Source: Ideonella sp. (GTDB lineage: Bacteria; Pseudomonadota; Gammaproteobacteria; Burkholderiales; Burkholderiaceae_C). From it: DNA of 64,000 bases. The position numbers were made by a program, and so were the translations under genes. The notes under the pieces were generated by a model, which did no database searches, was not told the DNA's origin, and saw only the letters and a list, made by a program, of their open reading frames with translations. Location: the NCBI GenBank assembly GCA_015075545.1, contig JABTUC010000001.1, positions 62,001-126,000 on the forward strand. Direction: 5' to 3'. Positions within the stretch are counted from its first letter, which is position 1. Each line of letters opens with the position of its first letter. This document shows positions 38,772 through 53,917 of the stretch, in pieces.

Positions 38772-38792
38772 CGCCCGCGCCTGCGGGCGCTA
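38769..38792. terminator. Bidirectional hairpin holding both stop codons
   Basis: TAGCGCCCGC / GCGGGCGCTA pair perfectly over 10 bp with a 4-nt loop. The TAG of the AAA ATPase gene is the left end of the palindrome, and the TAG of the BTAD gene, on the other strand, is its right end. Confidence 0.55.
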
Positions 38793-41700
38793 CGCCAGCC
38801 GCGAGGCGAGCGCGAGCAGTTCCCGGTTGACCGGATTGCGGTCGAGGTAGCTGTCGCGAAACTCCGGCGGCACCTCGTCGCGCGCGATGCGCCGAATCGT
38901 CGCGGCTGCTGCGGCCAGCCCCCTGGCCACTTCATCGCGGCGCCCGGCAGCGTGCAGCACGCGCGCGCTCGCGAGCCAGCGCTCGCCACCGTACAGATCG
39001 TTGGGCTCGATGTCGTCCGGCGTCTGCGCCAGCTCGGCGCACACCCGCTGTGCGGTGTCGATGTCGCCGTGCTGGCACGCCAGGCCGGCGAGGCGGACCC
39101 GCGCGGCCAGCATGCTGCCGAAGTGCCCGAGCCGCTCCGCTTTGGCCAGCACGGCCTGAATCTCGGCCACGGACACGGCGGCCGGCTGCACCAGCGCACG
39201 GTCGAGCGCGATCATCGCCGCCAACACGGTACGCTCGTTCATCGGGGCCGATGAGGCCGCTGCATCCCAGTGGCGCGCGGCGTCGGCCCTGCGCTCGAGC
39301 GCCCACGCGCAACGGCCGAGCATCTGCTGGCGGCGTGCATCGAGCCACGCGGGCACGGCTGCTTGCGAGTCGATCATCCCCAGCTCGCGTTGCGCGCGGG
39401 CGGTCTGGCCAAGGTGCAGCCACAGGCATGCGCGGTGCACGCTCAACGCCGCCGCCGCGAGCGCGTTGTGCGCCACGTCGGCCAGCGCGATCTCGAGCGT
39501 AGCCAGCGCCGTGCGGTACCTGCGCAGCATCATCGCTGCGACGCCCTCGAACAGGTTGAGCGAGAACGAATGGCCGTGCAGCTCGTCGTAGGCCGCGCCG
39601 AGCCGCCGCGCCTGGGCGATGGCATCGAGCGCGGCCCGCGGTCTGCCGACGTCGAGCAGGCTGATCGCCAGGTTGCCCGCTGCGCTGACGGCTTCGTCGA
39701 AGCGGCGTGCATGCGTCGCGGCCTCGATCGCCCGCTGGTGCACCGACTGCGCTTCGGCCTGGTGGTCGATGTTGTCCAGGCTCAGGCCGAGATGGCCCAG
39801 CAGGTTGATCCGGGTGTCGTCGCTGGCGTGTTCGAGAGCCCATGGCAGCAAGGGCCTGAGCAGGCGCACGGCGCGGTCGGCGTCACCGACCTGCGACGCT
39901 GCGGCGGCAGCGTCCGACAGCGACGCGGCCGCCAGCTCCTCGTCGCCGGCGGCGCGCGCCAGATCGGCCGCGCGCTGCGACACGGGAATGGCCTGCGCAT
40001 AGCGGCCGCGGTGCAGCAGCACATGCCCGCGCAACGACAACGCCTGCGCCTGCCGGCGCGGCGTGGCGGCCTGGGCGTCCAGCCGGTCGATCAGCGCCTC
40101 GTCGACGCGATCGCGGTCCAGCGCGATCAGCGTCTCGAGCAGCGCGTGCAGGGCGTCGAAGGCCGCTTCGCGGTCGCCCAGTTGCTCGGCCACCGCGACG
40201 GCGCCCTCGTAAAGTTGTGCCGCCTCGGCCAGGCGCAGCGCTTGGTGGTGCGCCTCCGCGGCGGCGCGCATCAGGGCATCGAGCGCCTGCCGGTGCCTCC
40301 CGGCGGCCAGCCAGTGCTCGGCCAACCGCGCGGGCGCAGCGTCGCGGTCGGCCAGCAGGCGGGCGATCTGGCCGTGCAGTTCGCGCGCGATCGCAGCGGG
40401 CACCGAGGCGCGCGCGGCGTCGGCGATCAGGTCGTGCGCGAAGGCGCCGTCGCGAAAGACCTGCGCCGCCTCCAGTTCGCCCCACGCATCGGCGAGGTCC
40501 AGCGGCTGCACGCTCAGCACACGCGCAGCCAGCTCGGCCGAGAAGTCCTGCCCTGCCACGGCAGCGCAGCGGGCGAGCCGGACGGCTGCGGGCGACAGCC
40601 GGCCGATGCGGCGCTCGATCAGCGCGCCGACGTGCCTGACCGCCGGCAACCGGGCGTCGGTGGCTTGGCCGCCCTGCGTCAACCAGCCCTTCAGCGACTC
40701 GAGCACGAACAGCGGATTGCCGCCGGTGTGGCGCGCCAGTAGCGGGGCCATCGCGGCGGCGTCGATGTCGGGCAGAGCGAGCGATTCGACGAGCCGCGCG
40801 ATCTGCGCTTCATCGAGCGGCTGCAAGTCGATCAGCTGCCCTCTGTCGCGCACCGCGTCGGTCAAGGCGCGCGCCGCGGCGCCCAGCTCGGCCGGCCGCC
40901 CCGCGAACACCCAGCGCTGGCAACCGGTGCCTTCGAGATACTGGATCAGCTCCACGCTCGCGTCGTCGGCGAAGTGGAGGTCGTCGACGATCACGCCCGC
41001 AACCCGCGGCTGCTGCGCCTGCAGCGCGGCGGCCACTGCGTTGAAGAAGCGCGCGCGCTCGGCGTCGGAGCGGATCGGCGCTGCTTCGCCCAGCTCCGGC
41101 AGCAGACGCGCCAGCTCGTTGCGAATGCCCGCATCGAGCACGGCCAAGCGCTCTGCCGCGATGAGCCGCAGCAGCCGCGCGATCAGCGCATAGACCACGC
41201 GTACGTCGCCCGGCCGCGCCGGCACGATCGCCGCGTGAGCCCGCGAGCGCGCAAAGTCCGACAGCAGCCGCGTCTTTCCCATGCCGGCCTCGCCGAGCAC
41301 GAGGGCCGGCTCGTGCTCGTCCCACGCCCGCTGCAGCGCCGCCCACTCGGCGTCGCGGCCGATCAGCCGCGGTGGCCGCAGCACCGACAGCGGCACCGCG
41401 CGCGCCGCCGGCGCGCGTTCGAGCGGCACCAGCGCAGCGCCGACGCTGGCGCGCAGCGACTCGGTTTCCTTCGACGGCGCGGCGTTGAGCTCGCGGCGCA
41501 ACGTCTGGCGGCAGCGCTCGTAGGCGGCCAGCGCCGCCGCGGTGTCGCCGCGCAGGTAGTGCAGCTTCATCACGCGCCGGTGCGCGTGCTCCGACAGCGG
41601 ATCGAGCGCGACCAGCGCATCGGCGTGCTCGAGCGCCGCGGTCAGATCGCCTTCGGTCTCGGCCTGCGTGGCAGCCGCGTCGAGCCGCGTGCTGCGCGCG

Positions 41701-42140
41701 CGGCGGCGTCCCTCGCGCTGCGTGTCGAGCCACTCGGCCAGACCCGCCGCGTGCTGTGGCTCGATCGCCTGCAGGACCTCGTGCGCGTCGTCGAGGTCGT
41801 GCGCGACGCCGGGGGCGAGCGCGGCCTGCGGGTTGCCCACCACCGGCTCGATGCCGGCGCTGCGCTTGAGCCGCATCAGCCGCTGCCGCAGGTTGCCGCG
41901 CGCGCGCTCGTCGCCGGCATCGGGCCACAGCAGCGTTGCCAGCCGCGCGCGCGGCGTCGGCCCTTCGAGGGCGAGGTAGGCCAGCAGCAGCGCGTCCTTG
42001 GGCTCGAGGTCGAGCCGCCGGCCGGCGTCGAGAACGAGGCGGCCGGCTTCGCGCAGCTGAAGCTGCGGCGGTGCGGCGGCGCTCGAGAGCCTCTTGCTCT
42101 TCTCGGGTTGTCGCGTCGACCTCGACATGACCATGTGCAT
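38790..42140 (-). CDS. BTAD/SARP-like transcriptional activator with NTPase and TPR domains
   Basis: A large one-component regulator, up to 1116 residues. In order: a winged-helix DNA-binding domain (about 30-105, with DALLLAYLALEGPTPRARLATLLWP), a BTAD all-helical domain (about 110-235), and an AAA_16/STAND NTPase. The NTPase carries Walker A GEAGMGKT at 283-290 and Walker B VIVDDLHFADD near 380. A long C-terminal TPR array runs from about 600 to the end. The closest known layout is that of AfsR/MalT-like activators, though with no C-terminal LuxR domain. Three in-frame ATGs open it (42140, 42134, 42128). A 142-bp repeat ends exactly at the third, which may be the true start. The probable targets are the tandem heptamer sites at 46.1 and 49.3 kb (inference). 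Confidence 0.85.
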   Translation of the reverse strand: MHMVMSRSTRQPEKSKRLSSAAAPPQLQLREAGRLVLDAGRRLDLEPKDALLLAYLALEGPTPRARLATLLWPDAGDERARGNLRQRLMRLKRSAGIEPVVGNPQAALAPGVAHDLDDAHEVLQAIEPQHAAGLAEWLDTQREGRRRARSTRLDAAATQAETEGDLTAALEHADALVALDPLSEHAHRRVMKLHYLRGDTAAALAAYERCRQTLRRELNAAPSKETESLRASVGAALVPLERAPAARAVPLSVLRPPRLIGRDAEWAALQRAWDEHEPALVLGEAGMGKTRLLSDFARSRAHAAIVPARPGDVRVVYALIARLLRLIAAERLAVLDAGIRNELARLLPELGEAAPIRSDAERARFFNAVAAALQAQQPRVAGVIVDDLHFADDASVELIQYLEGTGCQRWVFAGRPAELGAAARALTDAVRDRGQLIDLQPLDEAQIARLVESLALPDIDAAAMAPLLARHTGGNPLFVLESLKGWLTQGGQATDARLPAVRHVGALIERRIGRLSPAAVRLARCAAVAGQDFSAELAARVLSVQPLDLADAWGELEAAQVFRDGAFAHDLIADAARASVPAAIARELHGQIARLLADRDAAPARLAEHWLAAGRHRQALDALMRAAAEAHHQALRLAEAAQLYEGAVAVAEQLGDREAAFDALHALLETLIALDRDRVDEALIDRLDAQAATPRRQAQALSLRGHVLLHRGRYAQAIPVSQRAADLARAAGDEELAAASLSDAAAAASQVGDADRAVRLLRPLLPWALEHASDDTRINLLGHLGLSLDNIDHQAEAQSVHQRAIEAATHARRFDEAVSAAGNLAISLLDVGRPRAALDAIAQARRLGAAYDELHGHSFSLNLFEGVAAMMLRRYRTALATLEIALADVAHNALAAAALSVHRACLWLHLGQTARAQRELGMIDSQAAVPAWLDARRQQMLGRCAWALERRADAARHWDAAASSAPMNERTVLAAMIALDRALVQPAAVSVAEIQAVLAKAERLGHFGSMLAARVRLAGLACQHGDIDTAQRVCAELAQTPDDIEPNDLYGGERWLASARVLHAAGRRDEVARGLAAAAATIRRIARDEVPPEFRDSYLDRNPVNRELLALASRLA

Positions 42141-42267
42141 TGTGCTTCAGGCTCGGCGGCCGGAGTGAATGCGCTCGACACCGGGGCCGGTGGCCACGGC
42201 GTCGCCCGACTCGCGCGCTCAGTCACCCTTCGGATCGGCCTGCCCCTTGCGACCGGCGCTGGCGCAC
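42126..42267 (-). repeat. 142-bp direct repeat, copy 1 (upstream of the BTAD gene)
   Basis: Identical at 141 of 142 positions to 45930-46071 (the single difference is at 42189/45993), same orientation, 3804 bp apart. It covers the region upstream of the BTAD gene down to and including the ATG at 42128-42126. Identity stops on both sides at once. Confidence 0.95.
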
Positions 42268-42436: not shown

Positions 42437-43762
42437 TCACGGCGCCGCACCGCCTTGCTCGTTGCGCACGATCGCGCCGCCGAAGCCGACGGCGATCACC
42501 GTGTTGGCGCTCGCATGCGTCACCGCGTCCATCGTCGGCAGGCCGCGCCCGACGGCCGACCAGGTCGCCCCGCCGTCGGTCGTGCGCACGACGCCGTCGC
42601 CGACGGCGACCCCGGTGGTTGCGTTGGCGAACGACAAGCCCTCGAAGCGCCCACTGGCCACGCGCGTCCACGTCGATCCGCCGTCGGTGCTGCGATGGAT
42701 GCCGCTGCTGCTTGCGAGCACGACGACGCCGGATGCCGGCGCGGCGATATCCTGGATCCGCTCGTTGAAGTACAGCGACGTCACGCTCACCGGCGCCCAG
42801 GTCTGGCCGGCATCGGCGGTGCGCAACAGCAGCGCACCGGCGGCATAGCCGAGCGTCGACGAGGCGAAGCGCACCGCGAACAGCCCGCCCGGCTGCGGCG
42901 GCAGACTCACCACCGACCAGGTTTGGCCGCCGTCGCCGCTGCGCCGGATCACGTTGTTGGCCCCGTCGGAGCCGACGGCCACGCCGACGCTCGGCGATGC
43001 GAAGTCGACGCCGAAGAAGGTCACGCCCGGGTCCAGCCGCACCCGCGCCCAGGTCAGGCCGCCATCGGCAGAGCGGTAGAGCCGCCCCTGCCCGGCTGCT
43101 GCGACGGCAGCGGTACCGGCGAACGCGAGATCGCCCACGTACCGGTAGTCCCCGGCCGGGTGCCCGGGCTCGACGATGACATGTGGCGTCCAGACCTGCC
43201 CGCCATCGACGCTGCGCCAGATCACGTTGCCGAACCCGCCTGCCAGGCCGATGCCCGCCGGCGAGAACCGCAGGGCATCGAGGCGGTCCATGGTGCCGCC
43301 CCCGCCCAGGCGCGTCCACGACTGCCCGCCATCGGTGGTCCGTACCACCGTGCCGTAGGCGCCGACCGCGATCCCTTCGGACGCATTGACGAACCTCAGT
43401 CGCAGCGACCAGTTGGAACCGCGCGTGTCCCAACCCGCGAAGGGCGTGGCCCAGGTCGATCCACCGTCGGCGCTGCGCAGCACCCATCCCTCGTTCGTGA
43501 CGACCACGACGTCGGCAGGCCCGCTGAAGGCAATGGTGGCGGGCGCGCCGGCGTAGCCGCCGGCGAGCGCCTCCGCGGTCCAGGTCACCCCACCGTCCGT
43601 CGTGCGCGTGTACATGCCGCCGGCATCGATGGCGACACCCGTGGTGGCCGAGCCGAAGGCCGCATCGACGATGTCCCCGCTCAACCCGGAGCTGGCGTTG
43701 ACCCAGGTGAGGCCCGCGTCGGTGCTGCGCATGATCCGTCCGCTGCCGACCGCGACGAGCAC
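42437..43762 (-). CDS. YCF48/BNR-repeat beta-propeller region (intact 3' part of a broken gene)
   Basis: 441 codons made of repeated blades of the type R-S-x-D-G-G-x-T-W. Examples are MRSTDAGLTW, TRTTDGGVTW, LRSADGGSTW, VRTTDGGQSW, WRSVDGGQVW, YRSADGGLTW and HRSTDGGSTW, each followed by a short strand with AVG or GVA. This is the YCF48/photosystem-II-stability-factor-like or BNR fold, usually extracytoplasmic in proteobacteria. The apparent GTG start at 43762 is not a true start. In a neighbouring frame the sequence just upstream (SVDFVPDNGFLRRVAAVGG) joins smoothly to DVLVAVGSGRIM if one base is restored. See the pseudogene entry. Confidence 0.75.
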   Translation of the reverse strand: MLVAVGSGRIMRSTDAGLTWVNASSGLSGDIVDAAFGSATTGVAIDAGGMYTRTTDGGVTWTAEALAGGYAGAPATIAFSGPADVVVVTNEGWVLRSADGGSTWATPFAGWDTRGSNWSLRLRFVNASEGIAVGAYGTVVRTTDGGQSWTRLGGGGTMDRLDALRFSPAGIGLAGGFGNVIWRSVDGGQVWTPHVIVEPGHPAGDYRYVGDLAFAGTAAVAAAGQGRLYRSADGGLTWARVRLDPGVTFFGVDFASPSVGVAVGSDGANNVIRRSGDGGQTWSVVSLPPQPGGLFAVRFASSTLGYAAGALLLRTADAGQTWAPVSVTSLYFNERIQDIAAPASGVVVLASSSGIHRSTDGGSTWTRVASGRFEGLSFANATTGVAVGDGVVRTTDGGATWSAVGRGLPTMDAVTHASANTVIAVGFGGAIVRNEQGGAAP

Positions 43763-45944
43763 ATCTCGCCGCCGACAGCCGCCACGCGCCTCAGGAACCC
43801 GTTGTCAGGGACGAAGTCGACAGACGACCGATGCTGCCGCCGTCGCTGGTGCGCCAGATCGCGCTGCCGACCGCGACACCGTTGGCACCGAAAACGCGGG
43901 CTGTTGACGGCGAGCGTGCGGCATCAGGCACCTGGACCAAGTCTGCCCACCGTCGATGCTGCGGAACACGCCGTGTGCGCCACGGTCGATCGCCCGCCGC
44001 CAGCAGCACGCCGGCCGCAGCACCTGCACGTCGCGCAGTGCGAAGATCGCTCAGGAAGTCGAGGCTCAGGTGGCCCCTTGGTCGCCACTGCGCATGCGGA
44101 CGCCGCCACCGGACGCGTAGAGCTGCGCGAGGCCGTCGGGGGCGCGATCCGCCATCATATCGCCAGCGTGCGGCGTGGGCTGCGCGAAGCACCAGCCAGT
44201 GGCACTGCTGCCCGTGCAGGCACCGCCTGTCGGACGGTGGCAGCGTGACCGTCGAGGTCGCCTCGCGGCTGGTCGCGCTGCCCGCGCCGTTGCTCACGGC
44301 GACGCTGAAGCGCGCGCACCACCGTCAGCCAGCCGCGCGTTGGCCAGCGTGTAAGCCGGCGCCGTTAGCGCCAGCGATGTCAGCGCCATCGCGCCGCCAC
44401 TGGGCTACGACAGCGGCGCGGTGCCGGTGGCGTTGACCGCGAAGGTGGCGCGCTCTGGCCGACAACCGCGCTGACGTCAGCCGGATTCGCTGGGCGGGAT
44501 CGCCAGCGCCATCGCTGGCCTGCACGGTGATGGTCGCGGTGGTGCCCGAGCGACCGTGCCAGCGCTGTTGCTCGCCTCGGCGAGTACTGGATGCCCGGTG
44601 CGCCACCGACGGCGCCGGCGTCGTGTGCGGCCCAGATCTGATTCCCGAGCCGGTGCACAGCGCCCCGACCTCAGCGCCGGCGTGGCGACGCTCGCACACC
44701 TGGAACAGCGCACCATCGGTGCCCGGCGTGACGGCGGCCACGCGCTCAGGGCTCGCGGTCTGGCCCGGCGACCACGGCCATCGACTGCGGCTGCTGCGTG
44801 AACGCCAGCGCGACGGCAGCCGGCACCACGGTCAGCGTCGCCGCCTGGCTGTCGAAGGGCAGATCGACACCGCCAGGACCGCTGCGCGGAACGGACGCGG
44901 AGCCCAGGACTGCGCCGTCGTCGGCCAGCGCAGCAGCGGCCGAGCTAAACTGCTCTGGGTCGCGCGCCAGCCACATCGACGAGCGCTGGCCGCCATCGTT
45001 GCTGCGCCGCCATTGGTACAGCCCGGTCCTGGCGGCAATGACGGGCAGCGCCGTCTGCCCTGCCGTCACCGACACGTTGCCGGGCTGTTGGGTGATGGCC
45101 GGCTGCACGCCGTGGTGGACGACACGGATCAGCAGCTGGTGCTGTAGATCCACGAGGCCGGCCCCCAGCAGCGACAGCAGTGCCAGGCATCGAACGTGTA
45201 GCTCACCGACGCCCAGATCGTCAGCAGCCTGCCGCCCGGCGCGGACGCGCCGGAGATGGTGGCGGGATCGATCGGCACGTCGATGATCGACAGCGAAGAG
45301 GCTGTGCTAGTCACGCTCACGTTCCTGCGCAGTGCCGGCACGAGGTTGGCGGTGGTCCCCGTCAGCAGCGTGTCGGTGCGGCTGGTGCCCGCCGGGCGCC
45401 TCCAGCTCACGGGCCCGATCGTCGTGGGCTGATCGATCGTGATCATGAGGCAGCAGCGCGCCACTGGCCGATCGGGTTGGGGCAACATCGCGCCGGAGCC
45501 GTCAACGCAGCGTCAGCTGCAGCGCATGCTGCGGAACGATGGGCGAGCCGCGATCAGGTCAGACTGAGCACCGAAATGTAGGACGGACAAACACTCCGCC
45601 AAACAGCGTGGTAGAAGCCGTCGAGTCCGCCACGTTGTTGCCGCCGACCACGTCGCTGTGGCAGCTCCGCGGTGCACGCCAGCAGCCTGGGCGCGATCAC
45701 CGGCGCGGTGCCCGAGCGCTGGCGCAGCGGCGGGTCAGACGGAATCGAGGGTGCGCGCGGGCGCATCGTTCAGGCCGTGCGGCGTCAACAGGTAGATGCG
45801 CGACAGCAGCCGCAGGCCGCCGACATCAGGCGCGCCGGTGCTGTCGCCGGCGATGCACACCGTGGTATCCTGCGCCAGCACGCCTCGCCGATGGCCGCGC
45901 GCCGTCCAGGCCCTGCACCGCGCCGCCAGCATGACCATGTGCAT
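43763..45944 (-). pseudogene. Frameshifted 5' part of the Ig-like/YCF48 secreted protein gene
   Basis: Translating all three minus-strand frames gives ordered fragments of one protein. From 45944 these are MHMVMLAARCRAWTARG, then TTIGPVSWRRPAGTSRTDT near 45.4 kb. Ig-like repeats follow (AITQQPGNVSVTAGQTA, then SQAATLTVVPAAVALAFTQQ near 44.85 kb, SYQWRRDGADIAGANGA-like text near 44.4 kb and SNGAGSATSREAT near 44.27 kb). The first propeller blades (VAVGSAIWRTSDGGS) follow near 43.85 kb. Each fragment ends in another frame within 100-400 bp, so there are many small indels but no large deletion. Either the gene is decaying or this stretch is badly sequenced. Neighbouring genes are clean. Confidence 0.65.
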
Positions 45945-46071
45945 TGTGCTTCAGGCTCGGCGGCCGGAGTGAATGCGCTCGACACCGGGGCCAGTGGCCA
46001 CGGCGTCGCCCGACTCGCGCGCTCAGTCACCCTTCGGATCGGCCTGCCCCTTGCGACCGGCGCTGGCGCAC
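45930..46071 (-). repeat. 142-bp direct repeat, copy 2 (upstream of the Ig/YCF48 gene)
   Basis: Second copy of the repeat at 42126-42267. It also ends exactly on an ATG (45932-45930), which here opens the broken Ig/YCF48 gene. The spacer between the two copies is 3662 bp and contains only that gene and the small ORF. Confidence 0.95.
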
Positions 46072-46108
46072 CAGCGAACTCGACGTCCTCATGCTTTCTC
46101 TCCCGCCA

Positions 46109-46126
46109 GGGCCGAAGGGTCGGCCC
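46109..46126 (-). other. 5'-UTR hairpin
   Basis: GGGCCGA / TCGGCCC, a perfect 7-bp stem with a 4-nt loop. It begins a few bases downstream of the predicted start of transcription from the 46.14-kb promoter and upstream of a GGGAG ribosome-binding-like site and ATG (46092). There is no T-tail. It may protect or control the leader. Confidence 0.35.
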
Positions 46127-46134
46127 GTGCCGCG

Positions 46135-46167
46135 AAAGTACGGCGCGCGGCGTCACACCGGCGTCAC
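46135..46167 (-). promoter_or_regulatory. Tandem-heptamer promoter, site 1 (BTAD/SARP-type)
   Basis: Read on the minus strand: GTGACGC (46167-46161), 4 bp, GTGACGC (46156-46150), 9 bp, TACTTT as -10 (46140-46135). The 18-bp core containing both heptamers is identical to site 2 at 49.28 kb. SARP activators bind direct heptamers with an 11-bp period placed about 8 bp before the -10 box. This site drives toward the Ig/YCF48 pseudogene and, beyond it, the BTAD gene. Confidence 0.6.
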
Positions 46168-46194
46168 GCGGCCCGCGCGTTGACGGCCTGAGCG

Positions 46195-47244
46195 CTAGCC
46201 TTTGCAGTCCGACGGCCTGGGGCGCTGCTCGCAATACGGCCGCGGGCCGTAGCGATAGGCCGCGCCGTGTTCGCCGGCCGGGGCGCGCGTGCCGTCGCGG
46301 TGGGTGTCGCGGCCGGTATCGGGTATCAGCACCAGGTACCAGCGCTGCATGCCCGAGAGGTACTGCCAAGCGTAACGGTAGGTCATGGGCTCGGGCGCCA
46401 GCGGCTGCGCCGGGCCCTGCTGACGGCCGTCGCGGTCGCGCAGCACGCGCCGCACCTGGGCCGGCGCGACCGCGATCGTCTGCCCGGCGAGTCGGTAGGC
46501 GCCGGCCTCCTCGATCGACCAGTACTCGGCGCTCTTGTTCATCGACCAGAACTCGTGCGTGAAGGTGTAGCTGCCGTCCGCGGCGAAGCGGTAGGACCAC
46601 TTCGCCGAGCCCTGGCTGCCGATGCCCGCGATCTGTGCGCCGGTGAAGTTCGTGCCCCAGCTCGAGTAGTTGGCCGCCGAGCGGTACCACTCGTGCGCGG
46701 TGAGCGCGGGCGGCGACGAACCACCCTGCACCGCCGGCGGGGCCGCTGCGGCGACCGCCGCCGGCGGCTGCAGTTTCAGGCCGGCGATGAAACGATCGAC
46801 CTTCGGCCGGTACACGTCGTCGTTGTAGTTGACGAGCACGCTCGCCTTCACGCCGTGGCCGGTGAACACGTTGAGCAGCCCGACGAAGTTGCGCTGCTGC
46901 TCGCTCCAGACCTTGGCGGCGCCCATCGTGAGCTTCCAGCCGCCGGGCCAGTCGATGGTCTCGGACTTCAGTTCGCTCACCAGCCGATACTGGCCGAGCA
47001 GCAGCTTCCATTCGTCGGCGAAGTCGCGCGCCGGATCGCCGGCGCTGGGCGCGCTCTTGTAGACGGCGTAGGTGACGAAGGTGGTGCGCGTCGACTCGCT
47101 GAACCCCACCGCCTCGGGCCCGGCCTGGCGGTTGCCTGCCGGCACGTCGAAGCTGACCAGGTCCCACGTCTCGGCCTGCGCGGCCGCGCCGGCCAGCAGC
47201 CACGCGAGCAGCGCAGCGCGGACGGCGGCATGCGGCCCGATCAT
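46195..47244 (-). CDS. Secreted protein of unknown function
   Basis: 349 residues beginning MIGPHAAVRAALLAWLLAGAAAQA, a clear signal peptide cleaved before ETWDLVSF. Two parts follow. Residues about 25-165 (FDVPAGNRQAGPEAVGF, TIDWPGGWKLTMGAAKVWSE) resemble a small beta/alpha domain I cannot name. After a Pro/Ala linker, residues about 180-280 (HEWYRSAANYSSWGTNFTGAQIAGIGSQ, KWSYRFAADGSYTFTHEFW) resemble a lipocalin/META-like beta domain. The start overlaps a 30-codon ORF as ATGA. It is the last gene of the secreted-protein operon. I know no function. Confidence 0.7.
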   Translation of the reverse strand: MIGPHAAVRAALLAWLLAGAAAQAETWDLVSFDVPAGNRQAGPEAVGFSESTRTTFVTYAVYKSAPSAGDPARDFADEWKLLLGQYRLVSELKSETIDWPGGWKLTMGAAKVWSEQQRNFVGLLNVFTGHGVKASVLVNYNDDVYRPKVDRFIAGLKLQPPAAVAAAAPPAVQGGSSPPALTAHEWYRSAANYSSWGTNFTGAQIAGIGSQGSAKWSYRFAADGSYTFTHEFWSMNKSAEYWSIEEAGAYRLAGQTIAVAPAQVRRVLRDRDGRQQGPAQPLAPEPMTYRYAWQYLSGMQRWYLVLIPDTGRDTHRDGTRAPAGEHGAAYRYGPRPYCEQRPRPSDCKG

Positions 47245-47333
47245 GGGCGGCCCTCGCTGCCATCGCCGCCGCGCGTGAACTGAGCGCCGCCGCGCATCGG
47301 CTCGGGGGCGCCGCACCCGATCTGCTTGTCCAT
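47241..47333 (-). CDS. 30-residue small ORF translationally coupled to the next gene
   Basis: MDKQIGCGAPEPMRGGAQFT plus ten more residues. The ATG at 47333 has a strong GGAGG ribosome site 8 nt upstream, and its TGA overlaps the ATG of the following secreted-protein gene (ATGA). It has no signal peptide or membrane segment and one cysteine. It may make a peptide or simply load ribosomes for the next gene, which has no good ribosome site of its own. Confidence 0.5.
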   Translation of the reverse strand: MDKQIGCGAPEPMRGGAQFTRGGDGSEGRP

Positions 47334-47358
47334 TCGTGGCCCTCCGAGAAGAGTGCGT

Positions 47359-47850
47359 TCAGAACACGCTGGCGTCGAAGCCGCCGCTGGCTTGCGCGCT
47401 GGCGCCGGCGCTCCAGCCCCACCGACTGTCGACCGCGACATCGACGGCGCCGGCGCCGGCACTGGCCGTCACGCCGGCATCGAGCCGCACGTCGGTGATG
47501 CCGCTGCGGTCGAATTCGATGCCCACCGCGGCGCCTGCGCCGACGTTCACCTCGACGCCGCCGATCTCGGCCTTGTCGCCCACGCCGGCGCCCACCTGCA
47601 CGCCGCCGCGCGCGAGGCCCTGGTCGTCGAATTCGCCATGGCCGCCGACGGTCACACCCTGGATGCCGACGAGCAGCTTGCGCTGCTCGGGCGGCAGCTT
47701 GTCCAGCTCCCTTTGCATCTGCTTCATCATCGCGTCCATCTCCTGGGGGCTCGGCATGCCCTTGGGAGGCTGCGCAAGGGCCGCCGCAGCAGCCGTCAGC
47801 GCCAGCGCGAGGATGGCCTGCAGCAGGAGTTTCGACAGCGTGGCCTTCAT
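47359..47850 (-). CDS. Secreted Gly/Val-rich protein of unknown function
   Basis: 163 residues. The signal peptide is LLLQAILALALTAAAAALAQ, then a short helical segment rich in Met and Gln (EMDAMMKQMQRELDKLPPEQ). The rest is a repetitive stretch of short alternating beta-like units (GVQVGAGVGDKAEIGG, VNVGAGAAVGIEFDRSG, VRLDAGVTASAGAGAVDVAV) that looks like a small beta-helix or beta-solenoid. The start overlaps the previous gene's stop by ATGA. No relative recognised. Confidence 0.65.
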   Translation of the reverse strand: MKATLSKLLLQAILALALTAAAAALAQPPKGMPSPQEMDAMMKQMQRELDKLPPEQRKLLVGIQGVTVGGHGEFDDQGLARGGVQVGAGVGDKAEIGGVEVNVGAGAAVGIEFDRSGITDVRLDAGVTASAGAGAVDVAVDSRWGWSAGASAQASGGFDASVF

Positions 47851-48857
47851 CGCCCGAACAGCCCGCGCAGCTTGTTGACGGCGTCCTTGGCAGCCTGCTG
47901 CCCGACGTCGGGCGGGGGCGGCAGCGCCGCCGGCTGCGCGGCAGGCGGCTGCGCTTTGGCGTTTGCCTGCCCCGCGGCCTGCGGCTGCGCCTGCGCGCCG
48001 GCGGTGCCAGCGGCCTCCTGCGGCGCACCGATCTGCCAGGCGGCCGGCGCCGGCGCATCGGGCAGCGGCTGGTCCAGCAGCGCCTGCAGGCGCGCCCTGT
48101 CGAACGCCGCAACGATCGCCGCGCGCTGCGCGCCGTTGGGCAGCGGCCCGCTCACCATCGCCTGCAGGCTGCGCACCGCGAACGGCTTGCCGTGCGACGC
48201 GAAGCTGCCGAGCTTCAGATCGAGCTCGTGGTCGCGCGGCCGCGCTTCGAAGCGGTTGGCCTGCAGCACCACCTCGAACTCGCCGTTGGCGCGGGGCAAA
48301 CCGCGAATTTGCGCCTCCAGCGGATCGGTCTGCGCCCGCACGCCGTCGAGATGACGCTTGCGCAGCGCGTCGCGCTGCGACTCGATCGCGATCGCCTCCT
48401 TGTACTTCTGCGAGGCCAGTGGCTTGTTGCCCTCCTTGTCGGCGCGCCGCGCATCGCGGAACGCCTCCTGCCGGCGCGCTTCGAGCGCATCGAATTCACC
48501 TTTGGCCTCGGGCGGCAGCGCCTTCAGCGCGTCGAGCCTGGCCTGCAACTCGCGCCCCTGCGCGGCCACCTGCTCGGCCTGCGCGCGCGGCATGCGGAAC
48601 CGGTAGCTGGCACTGGCGGTCACCTCGAGCTCCCCCGTGGGTGTCTCCTTGCAGGCCGATCCCACCGTGGCACGCGGCGCCGCGGGCAACCCCATGTCGG
48701 CCGGCGCGGCCGGCATGGCCGCGATCAGCGCGGCGCTCAGCCGGCCGACGAACTGCTTCTCCGCGGCGGACAGCTCGCGCAGCGGACAGTCGGCACGGGC
48801 GTGCACGACGGCCGCACACAGGGCAGCCGCGGCGAGCCAGCGCGTGATGGTGCCCAT
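47847..48857 (-). CDS. Secreted coiled-coil protein of unknown function
   Basis: 336 residues starting MGTITRWLAAAALCAAVVHARA with a signal peptide; an in-frame start at 48875 would add six residues. The middle (about 90-185) is strongly helical and charged (QAEQVAAQGRELQARLDALK, FRDARRADKEGNKPLASQKYKEAIAIESQRD), probably a coiled coil. A compact domain (EFEVVLQANRFEARPRDHELD) and an Ala/Gln/Pro tail ending VNKLRGLFGR follow. Two Cys (CPLRE and CKET) could form a disulphide. The function is unknown. Confidence 0.65.
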   Translation of the reverse strand: MGTITRWLAAAALCAAVVHARADCPLRELSAAEKQFVGRLSAALIAAMPAAPADMGLPAAPRATVGSACKETPTGELEVTASASYRFRMPRAQAEQVAAQGRELQARLDALKALPPEAKGEFDALEARRQEAFRDARRADKEGNKPLASQKYKEAIAIESQRDALRKRHLDGVRAQTDPLEAQIRGLPRANGEFEVVLQANRFEARPRDHELDLKLGSFASHGKPFAVRSLQAMVSGPLPNGAQRAAIVAAFDRARLQALLDQPLPDAPAPAAWQIGAPQEAAGTAGAQAQPQAAGQANAKAQPPAAQPAALPPPPDVGQQAAKDAVNKLRGLFGR

Positions 48858-48921
48858 CGAATGGAGAGGTCGCATTGCAGCTCCCGTCAGGTGGTGGTTC
48901 CGGTTCGTCGCTCGCGCGCCG

Positions 48922-49209
48922 TCACTTCGCCTTCGCCTTGCCGCGCTGCACCTCGAGGTCTTCGAGGTCGTCGCCGCCCGCGGCCGACTTGGGCTTGCGC
49001 GCCTGCGACCTCTTCTGCGCGCTGGCGCCCGACTTGGCCTTGGCGCCGATGTACAGCTCGTCCTCGGTCTGCGTGCCAGGGCCGCGCGCCGACGGCTTGG
49101 CCGCCTTGGCGGCGGGCGCCGGCTTGCCCGGCTTGGCCGTCTCCGCGGCGTGCGGCACCCCGAAGGCCGGCAGCAACGCCAGCACGAGCGCGATTCGATG
49201 CAGTTTCAC
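48922..49209 (-). CDS. Small secreted basic protein of unknown function
   Basis: 95 residues with GTG start at 49209 and AAGGGAG seven bases upstream. The signal peptide is MKLHRIALVLALLPAFGVPHA; the mature part is Lys/Ala/Pro-rich, low complexity and probably disordered, ending RGKAKAK. It is the first gene of the operon and lies 50 nt downstream of the tandem-heptamer promoter site 2. Confidence 0.6.
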   Translation of the reverse strand: MKLHRIALVLALLPAFGVPHAAETAKPGKPAPAAKAAKPSARGPGTQTEDELYIGAKAKSGASAQKRSQARKPKSAAGGDDLEDLEVQRGKAKAK

Positions 49210-49258
49210 TTCGCTTCTCCCTTGCGCTGCGCATGCGGGCTTGCATGCGATTGCCCGC

Positions 49259-49291
49259 TTTGTAGGGACCGCAGCGTCACACCGGCGTCAC
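49259..49291 (-). promoter_or_regulatory. Tandem-heptamer promoter, site 2 (BTAD/SARP-type)
   Basis: Minus strand: GTGACGC (49291-49285), 4 bp, GTGACGC (49280-49274), 9 bp, TACAAA as -10 (49264-49259). Spacing is the same as site 1 to the base. It would start transcription about 43 nt before the GTG of the first secreted-protein gene. Confidence 0.65.
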
Positions 49292-49320
49292 AGCGCTGCG
49301 GCGCGGTCGAAACGCTGCAA

Positions 49321-49530
49321 TCAGAAGGCCCAGGTGGTCGTGTTCCCCGCCGGGTCGTCGGGTGCGAAGCACAGGCCAGTCACGGGGGCGAAGTGCGCCC
49401 GGCGCAGCGGGCCGTCGCCATGGTTGACGCCGGTTGGCGCGGGGGCGCCGCCCACCGGCAGCGCGCGGCCGCTCGATCGGGCGTCACGGATGGCCGCGGC
49501 GTCGCACAGCCGGCTCGTGTCGTCGCGCGC
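49321..49530 (-). pseudogene. Possible 3' remnant of an unidentified gene
   Basis: An open minus-strand frame with coding-like third positions ends at a TGA at 49321-49323 with the text RRAHFAPVTGLCFAPDDPAG followed by NTTTWAF. It has no plausible start and lies between the diguanylate cyclase stop and the operon promoter. It may be the tail of a deleted gene. I cannot name the family. Confidence 0.25.
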
Positions 49531-49548
49531 CGGGGCTTGGCGCCGGGC

Positions 49549-51303
49549 TCAGGTGGCCACCAGCCCCACCGAGGCCTGGCCGCGCCGCAGCGTGTGCTTG
49601 CCGGCCTGCTTGCCGGCGTACATCGCGGCGTCGGCGCGCTTGAGCAGGCTGTCGGCGTCGTGGCCGTCGAGCGGCGCCAGCGCGTAGCCCACCGTCAGCC
49701 CCACGCGGCACGGCTCGCCGCGCACGACGAACGACCGGCTGAACGCGTCGAGCAGCTTGTGCCCCAGGCGCCGCGCCTCTTCGTCGCCGGGCAGGTCGGT
49801 GGCCATCACGACGAACTCGTCGCCCCCCAGGCGCGCCACCACGTCGCGGTGCCGCAGCGGTGCACGCAGGCGCTGCGCCGCCTGCTTCAGCAGCTCGTCG
49901 CCGGCATCGTGGCCGAAGCGGTCGTTGACGGCCTTGAAGCCGTCGAGGTCGAGCAGGAACACGCCCAGCAGCCGCTCGCCGCCGGCGCGCAGCAAGGCGT
50001 CGGCCAGTTCGAGCTGCAGGCCGCGGCGGTTGGGCAGCCCGGTCAGCGGGTCGGTGTGCGCCAGCGAGCGCATCGCCTCGCGCTCGCGGTCGGCCTGCGC
50101 GGCGGCGTGGCGCGACTGCTCCTGCCGCACCGCGAGCACGCGCTGCCACATCACCATCTCGGCCAGCATGCCGAACTCGAACGCATGCTGCGTCCACCAG
50201 TTGGCTGCCACGTGGCCGCGCAGCAGCGCCACCATCACCACGATGCCCACGCCGTACAGGCCCCAGCCGATCAGCACGTACAGCGCGGCGCGGTCGCCGC
50301 CGCGCAGGCGCACCAGCGCCGCCGGCAGGCCGAGCACGATCGGCGAGGGCCCGAGCACGGTGGCCGCGAGGTGCGCCGCGCGGTAGTCGACCAGCCCGGC
50401 GGTGAATGCGACGGCGGCGCCGCCGGCCAGCAGCGCGGCGCCTCGCATCGCCAGCGCCAGGCGCGGGTTGTGGCGCGCCACCGACAGTGAGCGCTCGAGG
50501 AACAGCAGCGCGCCGACCAGCCCCACCAGCGCCGACAACGGCGGCAGGTTGGCCGTCAGCCACATGCTGCCGCCCCACAGATGCTGCGGGCCGAGCCCGT
50601 AGTAGCCGAAGAAGAAGACCGTCGCGCCGGCGACCGCCAGCGCATAGTGCACAAACGTGCGATCGCGCAGGCTGAGCCACTGCGCGATGCTGTAGATCAG
50701 CAGGCACAGGCCGATGCCGGCGATCACGCCTTGCAGCAACTGCACCTGCGCCTCGCGCTGCTGGTAGCGCTCGGCGGTCATCAGGCTGATCGGCAGCACC
50801 ATCGAGCTGGTGGTCTGCACGCGCAGCCACAGCTCGTGCCGCAGGCCGGGCTGCAGCTCGAGCGCGACCACGTGGGTGCGCACCTGCATCGTCCGCAACC
50901 GGAACGGCAGATCGTCGCCGACGCGCGCGAACTGCAGCAGCCGGCCTTCGGTCATCTGGTAGACCTCGATGCGGTCGAGCGACGGGTAGTCGATGTCGAG
51001 CAGCCAGCGCCCGCGCCCGCCAGTGCTCACCTGCAGCGGCACGTGCAGCCAGACGGCGTCGCTGCGCACGCCGAGGTTGGCCCTGGCGCCCGCCGGCGCA
51101 GCGAGTTGGGCCCGGCGCGCCTCGGCGTCCTCCACCTGCCACAGGCCGCTGGGGTCGGAGAGCATCGTCACGGCGGGCCAGGCGTCGACCTCGCCGCGGC
51201 TGTCGACCAGTTGCAGCGGCTGCGCCGGTTGCGCCCAGGCCGGCAGCAGGCCCGGCAGGGCCAGCAGGCCGCACAGCAACAGGTGGCGCAAACGGATATT
51301 CAT
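49549..51303 (-). CDS. Membrane diguanylate cyclase (7TMR-DISM sensor, GGDEF)
   Basis: 584 residues. A signal peptide (LLLCGLLALPGLLPAWAQ) precedes a periplasmic 7TMR-DISMED2-type beta-sandwich (about 25-165), seven transmembrane helices (about 180-390) and a short coiled coil (RQEQSRHAAAQADREREAMR). The GGDEF domain has DPLTGLPNRRG, the intact active site RLGGDEFV at 491-498 and a product-inhibition RxxD six residues before it (RHRD). It should make c-di-GMP in response to an extracytoplasmic ligand. The start at 51303 has GAGG just upstream. Confidence 0.9.
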   Translation of the reverse strand: MNIRLRHLLLCGLLALPGLLPAWAQPAQPLQLVDSRGEVDAWPAVTMLSDPSGLWQVEDAEARRAQLAAPAGARANLGVRSDAVWLHVPLQVSTGGRGRWLLDIDYPSLDRIEVYQMTEGRLLQFARVGDDLPFRLRTMQVRTHVVALELQPGLRHELWLRVQTTSSMVLPISLMTAERYQQREAQVQLLQGVIAGIGLCLLIYSIAQWLSLRDRTFVHYALAVAGATVFFFGYYGLGPQHLWGGSMWLTANLPPLSALVGLVGALLFLERSLSVARHNPRLALAMRGAALLAGGAAVAFTAGLVDYRAAHLAATVLGPSPIVLGLPAALVRLRGGDRAALYVLIGWGLYGVGIVVMVALLRGHVAANWWTQHAFEFGMLAEMVMWQRVLAVRQEQSRHAAAQADREREAMRSLAHTDPLTGLPNRRGLQLELADALLRAGGERLLGVFLLDLDGFKAVNDRFGHDAGDELLKQAAQRLRAPLRHRDVVARLGGDEFVVMATDLPGDEEARRLGHKLLDAFSRSFVVRGEPCRVGLTVGYALAPLDGHDADSLLKRADAAMYAGKQAGKHTLRRGQASVGLVAT

Positions 51304-51354
51304 GGTCCTCGTCATCGGTGTCGGTCGATCGCGGGCGAACTTGAGGCGCGCGCC

Positions 51355-51360
51355 TATGAT
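51355..51360 (+). promoter_or_regulatory. -10 box TATGAT before the 5'-nucleotidase gene
   Basis: TATGAT ends 7 nt before the ATG at 51368. It is in the 64-bp spacer divergent from the diguanylate cyclase gene. Confidence 0.4.
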
Positions 51361-51367
51361 TTGCGTC

Positions 51368-52261
51368 ATGCCCGCCAGCCTCGAAGGCCAGCTCGTCGTC
51401 GCCATCTCGTCGCGTGCCTTGTTCGATTTCGAGGAGGAGAACCGCGTTTTCGAGGCCAGCGACGACCGCGCCTACATGCAGCTGCAACTGCAGCGGCTGG
51501 AGCAGCCGGCAGGCCCCGGCGTGGCGTTTTCGCTGGTCAACAAGCTGCTCGCCTTCAACCTCGGCGCCGGGCCGCGCGTGGAGGTGGTGATCCTGTCGCG
51601 CAACGACCCGGTGTCGGGCATGCGCGTGTTCCGCTCGGCGCAGCACTACCGGCTGCCGATCCAGCGCGGCGTGTTCACGCGCGGCCAGAGCCCGTGGCGC
51701 TACCTCAAGCCGCTGGCGGCGCAGCTCTTCCTGTCGGCCAACGAGGCCGACGTGCGCTCGGCGCTCGACGCCGGCGTGCCGGCGGCGCGCGTCTACCCGC
51801 ACAGCGCGCGCGCCACCGACCGGCATCCGGCCGAGGTGCGCATCGCGTTCGACGGCGACGCGGTGCTGTTCTCCGACGAGGCCGAGCGCGTCTTCCAGCA
51901 CGACGGGCTCGACGCCTTCCACACGCACGAGCGCGAGCGCTCGGCAACGCCGCTGGCGCCCGGCCCGTTCAAGCCGCTGCTCGAGGCATTGCATCGGCTG
52001 CAGCGCGAGCCCGCGCGCGACATGCGGATCCGAACCGCGCTGGTCACCGCGCGCAGCGCGCCTGCGCACGAGCGAGCGATCCGCACGCTGATGGCCTGGC
52101 GCATCGAGGTCGACGAGGCGATGTTCCTCGGCGGCCTGCCCAAGGGCGAGTTCCTGCGCGAGTTCGAGCCCGACTTCTTCTTCGACGACCAGACCGGGCA
52201 CGTCGAGTCGGCTGCCGAGCACGTGCCCGCCGGGCACGTGGCGGCGGGTATCGCGAACTGA
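51368..52261 (+). CDS. 5'-nucleotidase (cytosolic NT5C1-like family)
   Basis: 297 residues of the bacterial 5'-nucleotidase family related to cytosolic NT5C1 (HAD-like). They hydrolyse nucleoside monophosphates. The family blocks are AISSRALFDFEEE, GVAFSLVNKLLAFN, VEVVILSRNDPVSG, VRIAFDGDAVLFSDE and DFFFDDQTGHVE. In this family the FDGDAVLF segment is taken as the HAD Asp motif. Its stop codon overlaps the left inverted repeat of an insertion sequence. Confidence 0.9.
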   Translation: MPASLEGQLVVAISSRALFDFEEENRVFEASDDRAYMQLQLQRLEQPAGPGVAFSLVNKLLAFNLGAGPRVEVVILSRNDPVSGMRVFRSAQHYRLPIQRGVFTRGQSPWRYLKPLAAQLFLSANEADVRSALDAGVPAARVYPHSARATDRHPAEVRIAFDGDAVLFSDEAERVFQHDGLDAFHTHERERSATPLAPGPFKPLLEALHRLQREPARDMRIRTALVTARSAPAHERAIRTLMAWRIEVDEAMFLGGLPKGEFLREFEPDFFFDDQTGHVESAAEHVPAGHVAAGIAN

Positions 52262-53917
52262 GAAGCCGTGAACGAAACGCTGGCCATGCTGACGGAGCGG
52301 AGTGAGAGCTTGGGCAGGCTGGGCATCGTTCGCACGTGGGGTTGCCGCGACGCCATCGGTGCGAGCGGCGCTGTTGCGGTGCCGGCGGTGCTGAGGCGAG
52401 AGGGCGGAGGTCTTTGCGGGCTGTCTTGGAGCCTGGATTCAGGCGGCCAAGGCGATGTTCAGGCTTCGCATGCGCATGAGGTTGTGCGCCAAGGCATGCC
52501 ACAGCAGCACCGCACGGGCCTTGACCAAGCCGCGGACGTTGAATTGGCTCAAGCCGCGGCGCCGCAACTGCGCGTTGGCGCATTCGACGGCAGCCCCGCG
52601 CTGGATGTACAGCGCCTTGGCGAAGTCACTGGCCATGAACGCGCGCCACTGCGCCTGCGCCGGTGTGTCGGTGGGCTTGGGCGCCAGCGGGACGATCCCG
52701 GGGTTGCGGCTGCGTGGGGGCGGCAGCACGGGCTGCGTGCCGCGCTCGGTCAGCTCGTCGATGGCCTGCAGCTTGGTGAAGCCGCCGTCGGCCAGCCAGT
52801 GATCGGGCGTGGTGCCGTAGCGCTGTTGAACATCGAGGTGCATCGGGCTCATCTGGCCCATGTCGCTGCCGCTGTTGCTCACGGCCACTGCGGCGATGAG
52901 TTGCGTATCGGCATCCACGGCCAACTGCGCGTTGAAGGCTGGACGAAAGCCCCCGTCGGCCATCTTCATGACGCGCGCCTCGGCGTCGGTGGTGCTCACG
53001 CGCGGGTCGGGTTCGGGCTTGGCCGCAGGCGTGCCCGCATCGGTCGGCGCATCGTCGCCGCTGCCGCAGCGCTTGGAGGGCTTGGGCTTCCTGGGCTCGG
53101 GCACGGGCTTGCGCTGGAGCTTGTTCATCGTGGCCAGCGCCGCGGCCAGGCGTTGTTCGCGCTCGCGCGCGGCACGCTCGAGCGCCGCGTGCTTGCGCCG
53201 CGCGCTGGCGCCGGCGTCCTCGGTGAGTTCGCGCTTGAGCGCTTGGACCTGGGCCTGTGCCTGGGCGTGCAGCGCGGCGAGTCTGTCGCGCCGACGAAAG
53301 CTCGCCGCCTTGGCATGCGCGCGCACGCGCAAACCGTCCTGCGCGACGACGTTGAGGGTGACCAGCCGCCGCTCCATCAGCGAGGCGATCGAGCGCGTGA
53401 GCTGCGCGTCCAGCCACGCCTCGTGCTCGGTGCGAAAGTCCGCCAGCGAGTGGTAGTTGACGCCCACGCCGCCGCAGATCCAGCGGTAGGCGTCGTCGCG
53501 CTCGCACAACCGATCGACCTCACGGGCCGAACCCACGCCGTCGATGGTGGTCCACAGCCACAGCGCCACCAGGATCGCCGGGTCGATGGCCGGCGCGCCG
53601 CCGCGACCGGCCACCGACTTGATGCGTGCGTACAGCGGCGCCAGCTCCAGCGCCTGCACGAACGCCCACACCGTGCGCGCCGGGTGATCGGGCGCCAGCA
53701 GCGACTCCAGATCGACAGGGCGCAATTCGACCTGATCGCGCTGCGGCCACATCACTCGTGGCGGGCCTTCGGCTTGCGGCTGCGCGCGCTCGCCACCGGC
53801 CGGCAGCTGTCCTTCACCGAACAGACCCCGCTGGGTCTGCTCACCCTCGCCTCCACTCGTCGCAGCGTCCATGCACTGCATAACGAGTCAGGGGCGAGGT
53901 TCGTTCACAGGTTCTGA
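52260..53917 (-). mobile_element. IS1182-family insertion sequence
   Basis: About 1.66 kb. The ends form imperfect inverted repeats: left GAGAAGCCGTGAACGAAAC from 52260, right (reverse complement) CAGAACCTGTGAACGAACC from 53916, 15 of 19 matching. One complete transposase gene fills it. I see no clear target-site duplication. The left end abuts the 5'-nucleotidase stop; the right end is followed by a truncated coding frame. Confidence 0.75.
52439..53881 (-). CDS. IS1182-type DDE transposase
   Basis: 480 residues. The N-terminal DUF772-like domain has DPAILVALWLWTTIDGVGSAREVDRLCERDDAYRWICGG-type text. A Lys/Arg- and Ala-rich central region and the DDE core follow (AQDGLRVRAHAKAASFRRRD, FNAQLAVDADTQLIAAVAVS, LADGGFTK) with the C-terminal IS1182 block LSQFNVRGLVKARAVLLWHALAHNLMRM. 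It is uninterrupted and the DDE neighbourhood looks complete, so the element may be active. An ATG three codons later is also possible. Confidence 0.88.
   Translation of the reverse strand: MQCMDAATSGGEGEQTQRGLFGEGQLPAGGERAQPQAEGPPRVMWPQRDQVELRPVDLESLLAPDHPARTVWAFVQALELAPLYARIKSVAGRGGAPAIDPAILVALWLWTTIDGVGSAREVDRLCERDDAYRWICGGVGVNYHSLADFRTEHEAWLDAQLTRSIASLMERRLVTLNVVAQDGLRVRAHAKAASFRRRDRLAALHAQAQAQVQALKRELTEDAGASARRKHAALERAAREREQRLAAALATMNKLQRKPVPEPRKPKPSKRCGSGDDAPTDAGTPAAKPEPDPRVSTTDAEARVMKMADGGFRPAFNAQLAVDADTQLIAAVAVSNSGSDMGQMSPMHLDVQQRYGTTPDHWLADGGFTKLQAIDELTERGTQPVLPPPRSRNPGIVPLAPKPTDTPAQAQWRAFMASDFAKALYIQRGAAVECANAQLRRRGLSQFNVRGLVKARAVLLWHALAHNLMRMRSLNIALAA

Follow-up and report, generated by a model that had tools for sequence, protein, structure and literature searches.

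Locus and layout of the sites

We analysed a 64,000-nucleotide stretch of Ideonella sp. DNA (Burkholderiales; assembly GCA_015075545.1, contig JABTUC010000001.1, positions 62,001 to 126,000), here called the window, which contains two identical tandem-heptamer sites and, close to them, the gene of a large regulator with a BTAD domain. Along the minus strand, a GGDEF gene (49549-51405) is followed by site 2, then by four open reading frames (ORFs), site 1, a disrupted ZU5-Ig-BNR gene and the regulator gene. The features on which the argument turns are as follows.

49274..49291, minus strand: site 2, GTGACGC-CGGT-GTGACGC, proposed operator
49259..49264, minus strand: TACAAA, proposed -10 box of site 2, 9 bp after it
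46150..46167, minus strand: site 1, GTGACGC-CGGT-GTGACGC, proposed operator
46135..46140, minus strand: TACTTT, proposed -10 box of site 1, 9 bp after it
38790..42140, minus strand: BTAD regulator of 1116 amino acids (aa), with a winged-helix-like N-terminus, BTAD, an AAA_16 ATPase and TPR; recognition-helix residues R81-G82-N83

The sequence GTGACGCCGGTGTGACGC is found on the minus strand at both positions, and in both cases exactly 9 bases separate it from the TAC box. The identity between the two sites ends at 18 bp. The original prediction, made from the letters of the window, had described one layout at both sites (heptamer, 4 bp, heptamer, 9 bp, TACNNN) and a BTAD regulator 4 kb away in the same orientation. 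The positions and spacing proved exact, and the regulator gene starts 4.0 kb from site 1 on the same strand. The pair had also been said to occur nowhere else in the window, and no third exact copy of GTGACGCN4GTGACGC was found there. A scan of the whole 3.69-Mb assembly, which is 85% complete, extended this result, as GTGACGC-N4-GTGACGC has exactly two matches in it, both in the window, and the reversed control pattern has none.

Recurrence of the layout in related genomes

In order to compare related loci, 20 stretches of about 12-20 kb were fetched around regulator matches, one of them a paralog from the own genome; the motif was not used in their choice. Below, genomes, loci and contigs carry the labels G, L and C, respectively, with G000 denoting the own genome. 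A scan for 7-mers upstream of BTAD genes alone returned exact heptamer pairs in few loci, yet it gave the clue. When GTNACGC pairs with up to 3 mismatches and a TA at 7-11 bp were collected from the 20 loci, the spacing was mostly 9 and the typical box was TACAAC. We then varied the period from 7 to 16 and the spacing from 5 to 13, with the heptamer set to NTNACGS (1 mismatch) and the box to TA[ACG][AC][AC]. The combination of period 11 and spacing 9 gave 16 hits, whereas each of the 89 other cells gave 0-3, the sole cell to reach 3 being period 11 with spacing 11. As the heptamer and the box had been worded after the GTNACGC scan of the same loci, this grid tests the spacing and not the letters.

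Of 399 genomes of the family that were searched, 45 contain a BTAD-AAA-TPR regulator at E<=1e-60. The strict pattern was found at 41 sites in 24 genomes, and 20 of these 24 carry the regulator (20 of 45 regulator genomes versus 4 of 354 others; odds ratio 70, p=1e-17). Because 20 of the genomes had shaped the pattern, the test was repeated without them, and the association persisted (6/25 regulator genomes versus 4/354 others, p=8e-6). The four site genomes that lack the regulator (G248, G256, G268 and G419) hold five sites, mostly with mismatched heptamers, which look like chance matches. The reversed control pattern gave few hits in the 399 genomes, in regulator-bearing and regulator-free genomes alike.

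Among the orthologs found, the one closest to the window regulator is encoded in the metagenome-assembled genome WY5.bin8 (locus L146); its N-terminal part is 68% identical. There, GTAACGC-CCGT-GTGACGC-N9-TACAAG (at 4547) is followed by a 739-aa lipoprotein-like ORF (at 4631) and then by the regulator, which is the order of site 1, the ZU5-Ig-BNR gene and the regulator in the window. Judged from sequence, GTGACGC is one specificity variant within a putative operator family NTNACGS and not an isolated pair. The link between the sites and the BTAD regulator that the original prediction had drawn is supported by the recurrent period of 11 with a spacing of 9, by the co-occurrence in genomes, by the arrangement in L146 and by the agreement between heptamer base 3 and the recognition helix that is described below.

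Site catalogue and downstream genes

A weight matrix was built from 30 sites and applied with a cut-off of 13 bits to 40 loci (660 kb). It returned 45 sites, including the 30 training sites, and none in the reversed sequence. Site 2, one of the training sites, scores 35.2 bits; site 1 scores 17.7 bits, mainly because its -10 box, TACTTT, is less typical. By the calls of a home-made gene caller, 42 of the 45 sites are intergenic. The next predicted gene on the same strand starts within 100 bp at 35 sites and is the regulator itself at nine. A regulator lies within 5 kb in the same stretch at 30/45 sites, a number that is biased by the 20 of the 40 loci that were fetched around a regulator. At 14 sites there is no regulator within the assigned locus. 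Two of these sites in G171 and two in G221 share their contig with a regulator at a distance of about 1-13 kb, so that some sites may act away from the regulator gene. The suggestion that the pair forms a self-contained regulon thus stands for the GTGACGC type here, with its two exact copies, but does not carry over to relatives, where some sites have no regulator in their stretch.

A search by regulator alignment supplied 80 further loci, in which the matrix found 53 sites in 42 loci, with a single site in the reversed sequence. The sequence context of 36 of these sites, in 28 loci, was new with respect to the first 40 loci, and 31 of the 36 have TA at -10. Sites were present in 41/67 further loci outside Myxococcota and Deinococcota versus 1/13 within these phyla. 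Counted by distinct regulators, 40 of 61 have a site of at least 13 bits nearby. Rubrivivax rivuli KYPY4 (loci L172 and L188) is an example of a cultured species that carries such regulators.

Eighteen proteins encoded downstream of sites were compared with Pfam. Five had no match, and most of the others carry modules of secreted proteins, the domains being Ig (I-set/Ig_3), RCC1, NHL, BNR/Sortilin, ZU5, RTX repeats and Laminin_G with PEP-CTERM. Many of the targets have, by eye, a lipobox-like stretch such as LAACGGGG at their start. Site pairs in L136 (G171) and L138 (G254) stand before predicted membrane proteins of 52-58 aa with the gene of a 490-aa membrane protein adjoining; these small proteins are a different class of target.

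The regulator and its closest known counterparts

The BTAD domain of the window regulator (PF03704) spans residues 136-232 (E=9.8e-12, 45.9 bits against a cut-off of 22.1). The C-terminal part matches AAA_16 with 57.1 bits (cut-off 32.6) and TPR_12 with 30.7 bits (cut-off 30.1); the NB-ARC model was not among the Pfam matches, and no receiver domain was matched by Pfam at E 0.01 in the 1116 residues. A profile was made from the N-terminal 300 residues of the regulator and 26 relatives and compared with solved structures. Its top matches are designed TPR proteins, aligned solely with the TPR-like BTAD part. The best natural match is EmbR (2fez; E=4.8e-10), and AfsR, with chains 8k60, 8jke and 8hvr, follows at E=6.7e-9, both aligned over the winged helix and BTAD. 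EmbR comes from mycobacteria and ends in an FHA domain; unlike the window regulator, it lacks the ATPase/TPR part.

AfsR of Streptomyces coelicolor has the same order of winged helix, BTAD, ATPase and TPR, and its afs box likewise consists of two direct repeats 11 bp apart that end 8-9 bp before the -10 element. The systems described here differ from it in their betaproteobacterial hosts, the NTNACGS heptamer, the TACAAM-like -10 box and the AAA_16 type of ATPase. Their targets also set them apart, being in Burkholderiales mostly secreted proteins of the Ig/beta-propeller type and not antibiotic clusters. Antibiotic control in actinomycetes is not what is found here, but as a mark of SARPs it is historical and not mechanistic.

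The layout itself is familiar. SARP boxes are described as direct repeats with a distance of 11 or 22 bp, the 3' repeat lying 8 bp before the -10 element (PMC10936776), and as heptamers with 4-bp spacers (PMC7040171). In the window and in the relatives we find, as a sequence layout only, heptamers with a 4-bp spacer, a period of 11 and 9 bp to a TACAAM-like box. If TACAAM is assumed to occupy -12 to -7, positions -38 and -27 are where the heptamers have their invariant T; this is arithmetic and not proof, and it can be set beside the contacts of AfsR R92 with T-38 and T-27 (PMC10936776).

A regulator of the SARP family outside actinobacteria is GSU1771 of Geobacter sulfurreducens, for which gel shifts showed binding to its own promoter and to others (PMC10599522). 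Unlike the window regulator, it is described with a receiver domain (PMC10599522). No operator consensus was found in the same paper, in whose main text the terms 'direct repeat' and 'consensus' occur zero times.

Heptamer base 3 and the recognition helix

Position 3 of the heptamer had been left free in the search pattern. It is equal in the two heptamers of all 30 training sites (21 A/A, 7 G/G, 2 C/C) and of 42/45 catalogue sites, orthologous sites among them not being independent. The base found there correlates with the start of the recognition helix. At sites of at least 18 bits, the majority base 3 is A for 25/26 regulators with N82 versus 3/11 others (Fisher p=3e-5, uncorrected for phylogeny). 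The combination [AGS]-N at residues 82-83 is present in 5/61 regulators; base 3 is G at four of them and mixed A/G at L146. At GTCACG-type sites the helix residues are GS, TA and AA.

The correlation is also seen among paralogs. G000, G220 and G032 each contain both operator types, and each type is accompanied by the expected helix. The own genome has 8 BTAD genes, at least two of which, besides that of the window regulator, have TAACG-type sites. The regulator in L126 (G000 C1:196000-214500), encoded at C1:200.8-204.2 kb, has two such sites nearby, and the one in L226 (G000 C7:465000-478282), with the helix residues R-N-A, has one, GTAACGC/GTAACAC. On a tree built without the helix columns, the residue class changes 3 times and the base 4 times, giving 2 independent pairs that go the same way or tie.

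Other results weigh against a direct reading of base 3 by these residues. The majority base is G in L084 in spite of N82, one CC occurs among AA sites in L178, L187 is mixed, and the A/G mixture in L146 concerns the nearest ortholog of the window regulator. The phylogenetic test was not significant, because the independent changes, amounting to only 2-3 pairs, were too few. In the HMMER alignment residues 82-83 correspond to A84-A85 of AfsR, while the base contacts given in the text of PMC10936776 are those of R92 and T88, with A84/A85 not listed there. A mapping of AfsR T88 onto residue 83 was dropped, as the alignment places T88 at Q86. We therefore treat the sequence-based code between base 3 and the helix as a lead and not as a demonstration.

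The regulator of L139 (G032 C255) combines an R-A-N helix with a GTGACGC site, yet its BTAD part groups with regulators that have R-N-type helices and TAACG sites. This could be either convergence or a swap of the winged helix.

Interpretation and alternatives

The most likely explanation of the sequence data is that the two sites belong to a recurrent operator family that serves adjacent SARP-type regulators. Specifically, sites 1 and 2 are very probably operators of the neighbouring SARP-type activator (38790-42140), which they would recruit. By analogy with AfsR, two protomers, separated by one turn of the DNA, would occupy the two heptamers next to each other at the -35 position, and the bound regulator would help sigma and RNA polymerase to use the TACAAM-like box 9 bp further on, possibly through a contact with sigma region 4. 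The ATPase/TPR part may have a role in sensing. Site 2 would drive a short operon whose products are putatively secreted, and site 1 would drive, or would once have driven, the gene of the ZU5-Ig-BNR secreted protein just upstream of the regulator gene. The same wiring would recur in Burkholderiales with NTNACGS heptamers. Every paralog of the regulator would have a variant of its own, the choice of which probably depends on residues 82 and 83, where the recognition helix begins.

Several observations weigh against this explanation. Ten exact repeats of at least 18 bp are present in the window, and such a repeat is not rare as such. Loosened versions of the motif are not commoner than in controls: up to 3 mismatches gave 20 matches in the window, below the shuffle mean of 33, and up to 2 mismatches gave 87 in the own genome versus 124 for the reversed control. 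The 18-mer with at most 1 mismatch was absent from 59/59 other relatives searched. Taken literally, the motif thus seemed to be refuted by the relatives and by the control counts, and the generalised heptamer overturned that verdict. For these reasons, the features that exceed chance expectation are the exact double heptamer, its location ahead of genes, the distance that separates it from a -10-like box, and the fact that the generalised layout is met again next to related regulators. Sites are also missing where they might be expected: the strict pattern has no match in 25/45 regulator genomes, in the own genome five of the 8 BTAD genes lack a site of at least 9 bits in the stretches scanned, and 21/61 regulators have none of at least 13 bits within about 5 kb, although some of these loci end at contig ends. 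To these are added the 14 catalogue sites that have no regulator in their locus. Furthermore, the gene behind site 1 looks like a pseudogene or the product of local sequence errors, and the winged helix, when its sequence is compared on its own, finds no SARP structure, its best solved-structure match being the isolated OmpR-type winged helix of CarR at a weak E=0.38.

It appears unlikely that the bound regulator acts at the sites by repression or autoregulation instead of activation. GSU1771 gives a precedent, as it is reported to repress some and activate other direct targets (PMC10599522), but in the present sites the heptamers stand in for a -35 element at the spacing of SARP activators, and on unscored inspection no obvious -35 other than the heptamers accompanies the -10-like boxes.

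It is more doubtful still that the sites belong to another binder of direct repeats, for example a PhoB/OmpR-type response regulator encoded elsewhere, and that the BTAD neighbour is incidental. PhoB/OmpR response regulators are winged-helix proteins whose binding sites, too, are direct repeats with a distance of about 11 bp. CarR, the best though weak match of the lone winged helix, is of this type, and the 14/45 sites without a BTAD gene in their stretch would be explained. However, the window regulator differs from PhoB/OmpR proteins in having BTAD, ATPase and TPR and no Pfam receiver domain. The strict sites concentrate in genomes with BTAD-AAA-TPR regulators (20/45 versus 4/354), a regulator lies within 5 kb of 30/45 sites, with the fetching bias given above, and the first gene after the site is the regulator in 9/45. 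Base 3, moreover, tracks the helix residues of the BTAD regulators even among paralogs within G000, G220 and G032.

It is very improbable that the window pair is a functionless 18-bp repeat that arose by chance or is mobile, with the related sites elsewhere being real: the ten exact repeats, the atypical -10 and disrupted gene of site 1 and a 142-bp duplication adjoining that site speak for it, but both copies show the TA-box spacing that recurs in relatives, the identity, unlike that of a mobile element, stops at 18 bp, a start codon lies 49 bp from site 2, which scores 35.2 bits, and the ortholog locus L146 has a corresponding site.

Operators of a SARP-type activator thus remain our reading of the pair, which has the look of functional DNA. 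Streptomyces has precedents for both this type of regulator and the layout. A full-text search of the open-licence literature in PMC found no targets or operators of large Burkholderiales BTAD-ATPase-TPR regulators, and as far as our searches reach, the Burkholderiales operator, its association with secreted proteins and the apparent base-3 code are undescribed. Such regulators are common in Burkholderiales, and a defined operator would make their regulons predictable from sequence. The operator family points to control of secreted proteins of the Ig/beta-propeller type, and the natural pairs of paralogs and operators could serve as test material for a DNA-recognition code in the SARP fold.

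Distant regulators

Twelve loci with distant regulators from Myxococcota and Deinococcota were scanned, with L205 left out because of its close similarity to L204. Pairs of NTNACNC were found at 6 distinct places in the cell of period 11 and spacing 9 and 0-1 times in every other cell. This result is suggestive, because the heptamer was chosen after a first look at these loci; a scan of the twelve loci for any exact 7-mer showed no peak at period 11 and spacing 9, the peak being limited to NTNACNC. Pairs of GTCACAC occur in four mutually related Myxococcus loci (L204, L209, L214 and L224), the one in L204 directly upstream of a 526-aa monooxygenase-like ORF. Pairs of GTCACGC occur in two Archangium loci, and in Calidithermus roseus CTAACGC stands directly before a lipoprotein-like ORF behind the regulator.

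We consider it an evenly balanced proposition that the large BTAD regulators of Burkholderiales, Myxococcota and Deinococcota have a common promoter grammar, in which paralogs are insulated by two helix residues that read base 3 and each controls secreted-protein genes of its own. NTNAC-type heptamers, a period of 11, 9 bp and a TA box would then be general and not an actinobacterial speciality; N-x would read A, [AGS]-N would read G, and helices with neither would go with C or a mixture.

By eye, the ORFs behind the pairs of period 11 and spacing 9 that lie near BTAD regulators of Myxococcota and Calidithermus in L204, L206, L209, L214, L224 and L217 are monooxygenase-, acyl-CoA-dehydrogenase- or lipoprotein-like. 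The record of L205 is titled Comamonas sp. KCTC 72670, and its locus closely resembles that of Myxococcus xanthus in L204; it is possibly mislabelled or contaminated.

Gene neighbourhood in the window

The genes behind the two sites are listed below.

48922..49209, minus strand: 95-aa ORF with GTG as start codon and a signal-peptide-like N-terminus, without a Pfam match; it would be the first in the proposed site-2 operon
47847..48875, minus strand: 342-aa ORF, signal-peptide-like start, no Pfam match
47359..47850, minus strand: 163-aa ORF, signal-peptide-like start, no Pfam match
46195..47316, minus strand: 373-aa ORF, no Pfam match
42437..46092, minus strand: remnant, behind site 1, of a gene for a secreted protein of the ZU5-Ig-BNR type, similar to homologs in several frames

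The start codon of the 95-aa ORF lies 49 bp beyond the -10 box of site 2. An attempt to use the neighbouring ORFs for synteny failed, as relatives of the 95-aa and 373-aa proteins were found in only 3/299 and 4/299 family genomes, respectively, the own genome included. One of the latter is a partial homolog in G221, 39% identical over query residues 187-361, on a contig that also encodes a BTAD regulator and carries two sites. With 45950-49700 as the query, a search of plasmids found nothing.

The gene behind site 1 has a candidate start codon at 46090-46092 with a purine-rich stretch upstream of it. A single long open frame is present only in the BNR part (42437-43762), and from about 43762 to 46092 homologs are matched piecewise in several frames, the flanking genes being intact. 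A direct repeat of 142 bp, 99% identical, has its copies 3804 bp apart at 42126-42267, covering the 5' end of the regulator gene and the region upstream of it, and at 45930-46071, just behind site 1. It could be a true duplication or an assembly fault. Further along the window, at 52439-53881, a 480-aa minus-strand ORF resembles, by eye, a transposase of the IS5/IS1182 type.

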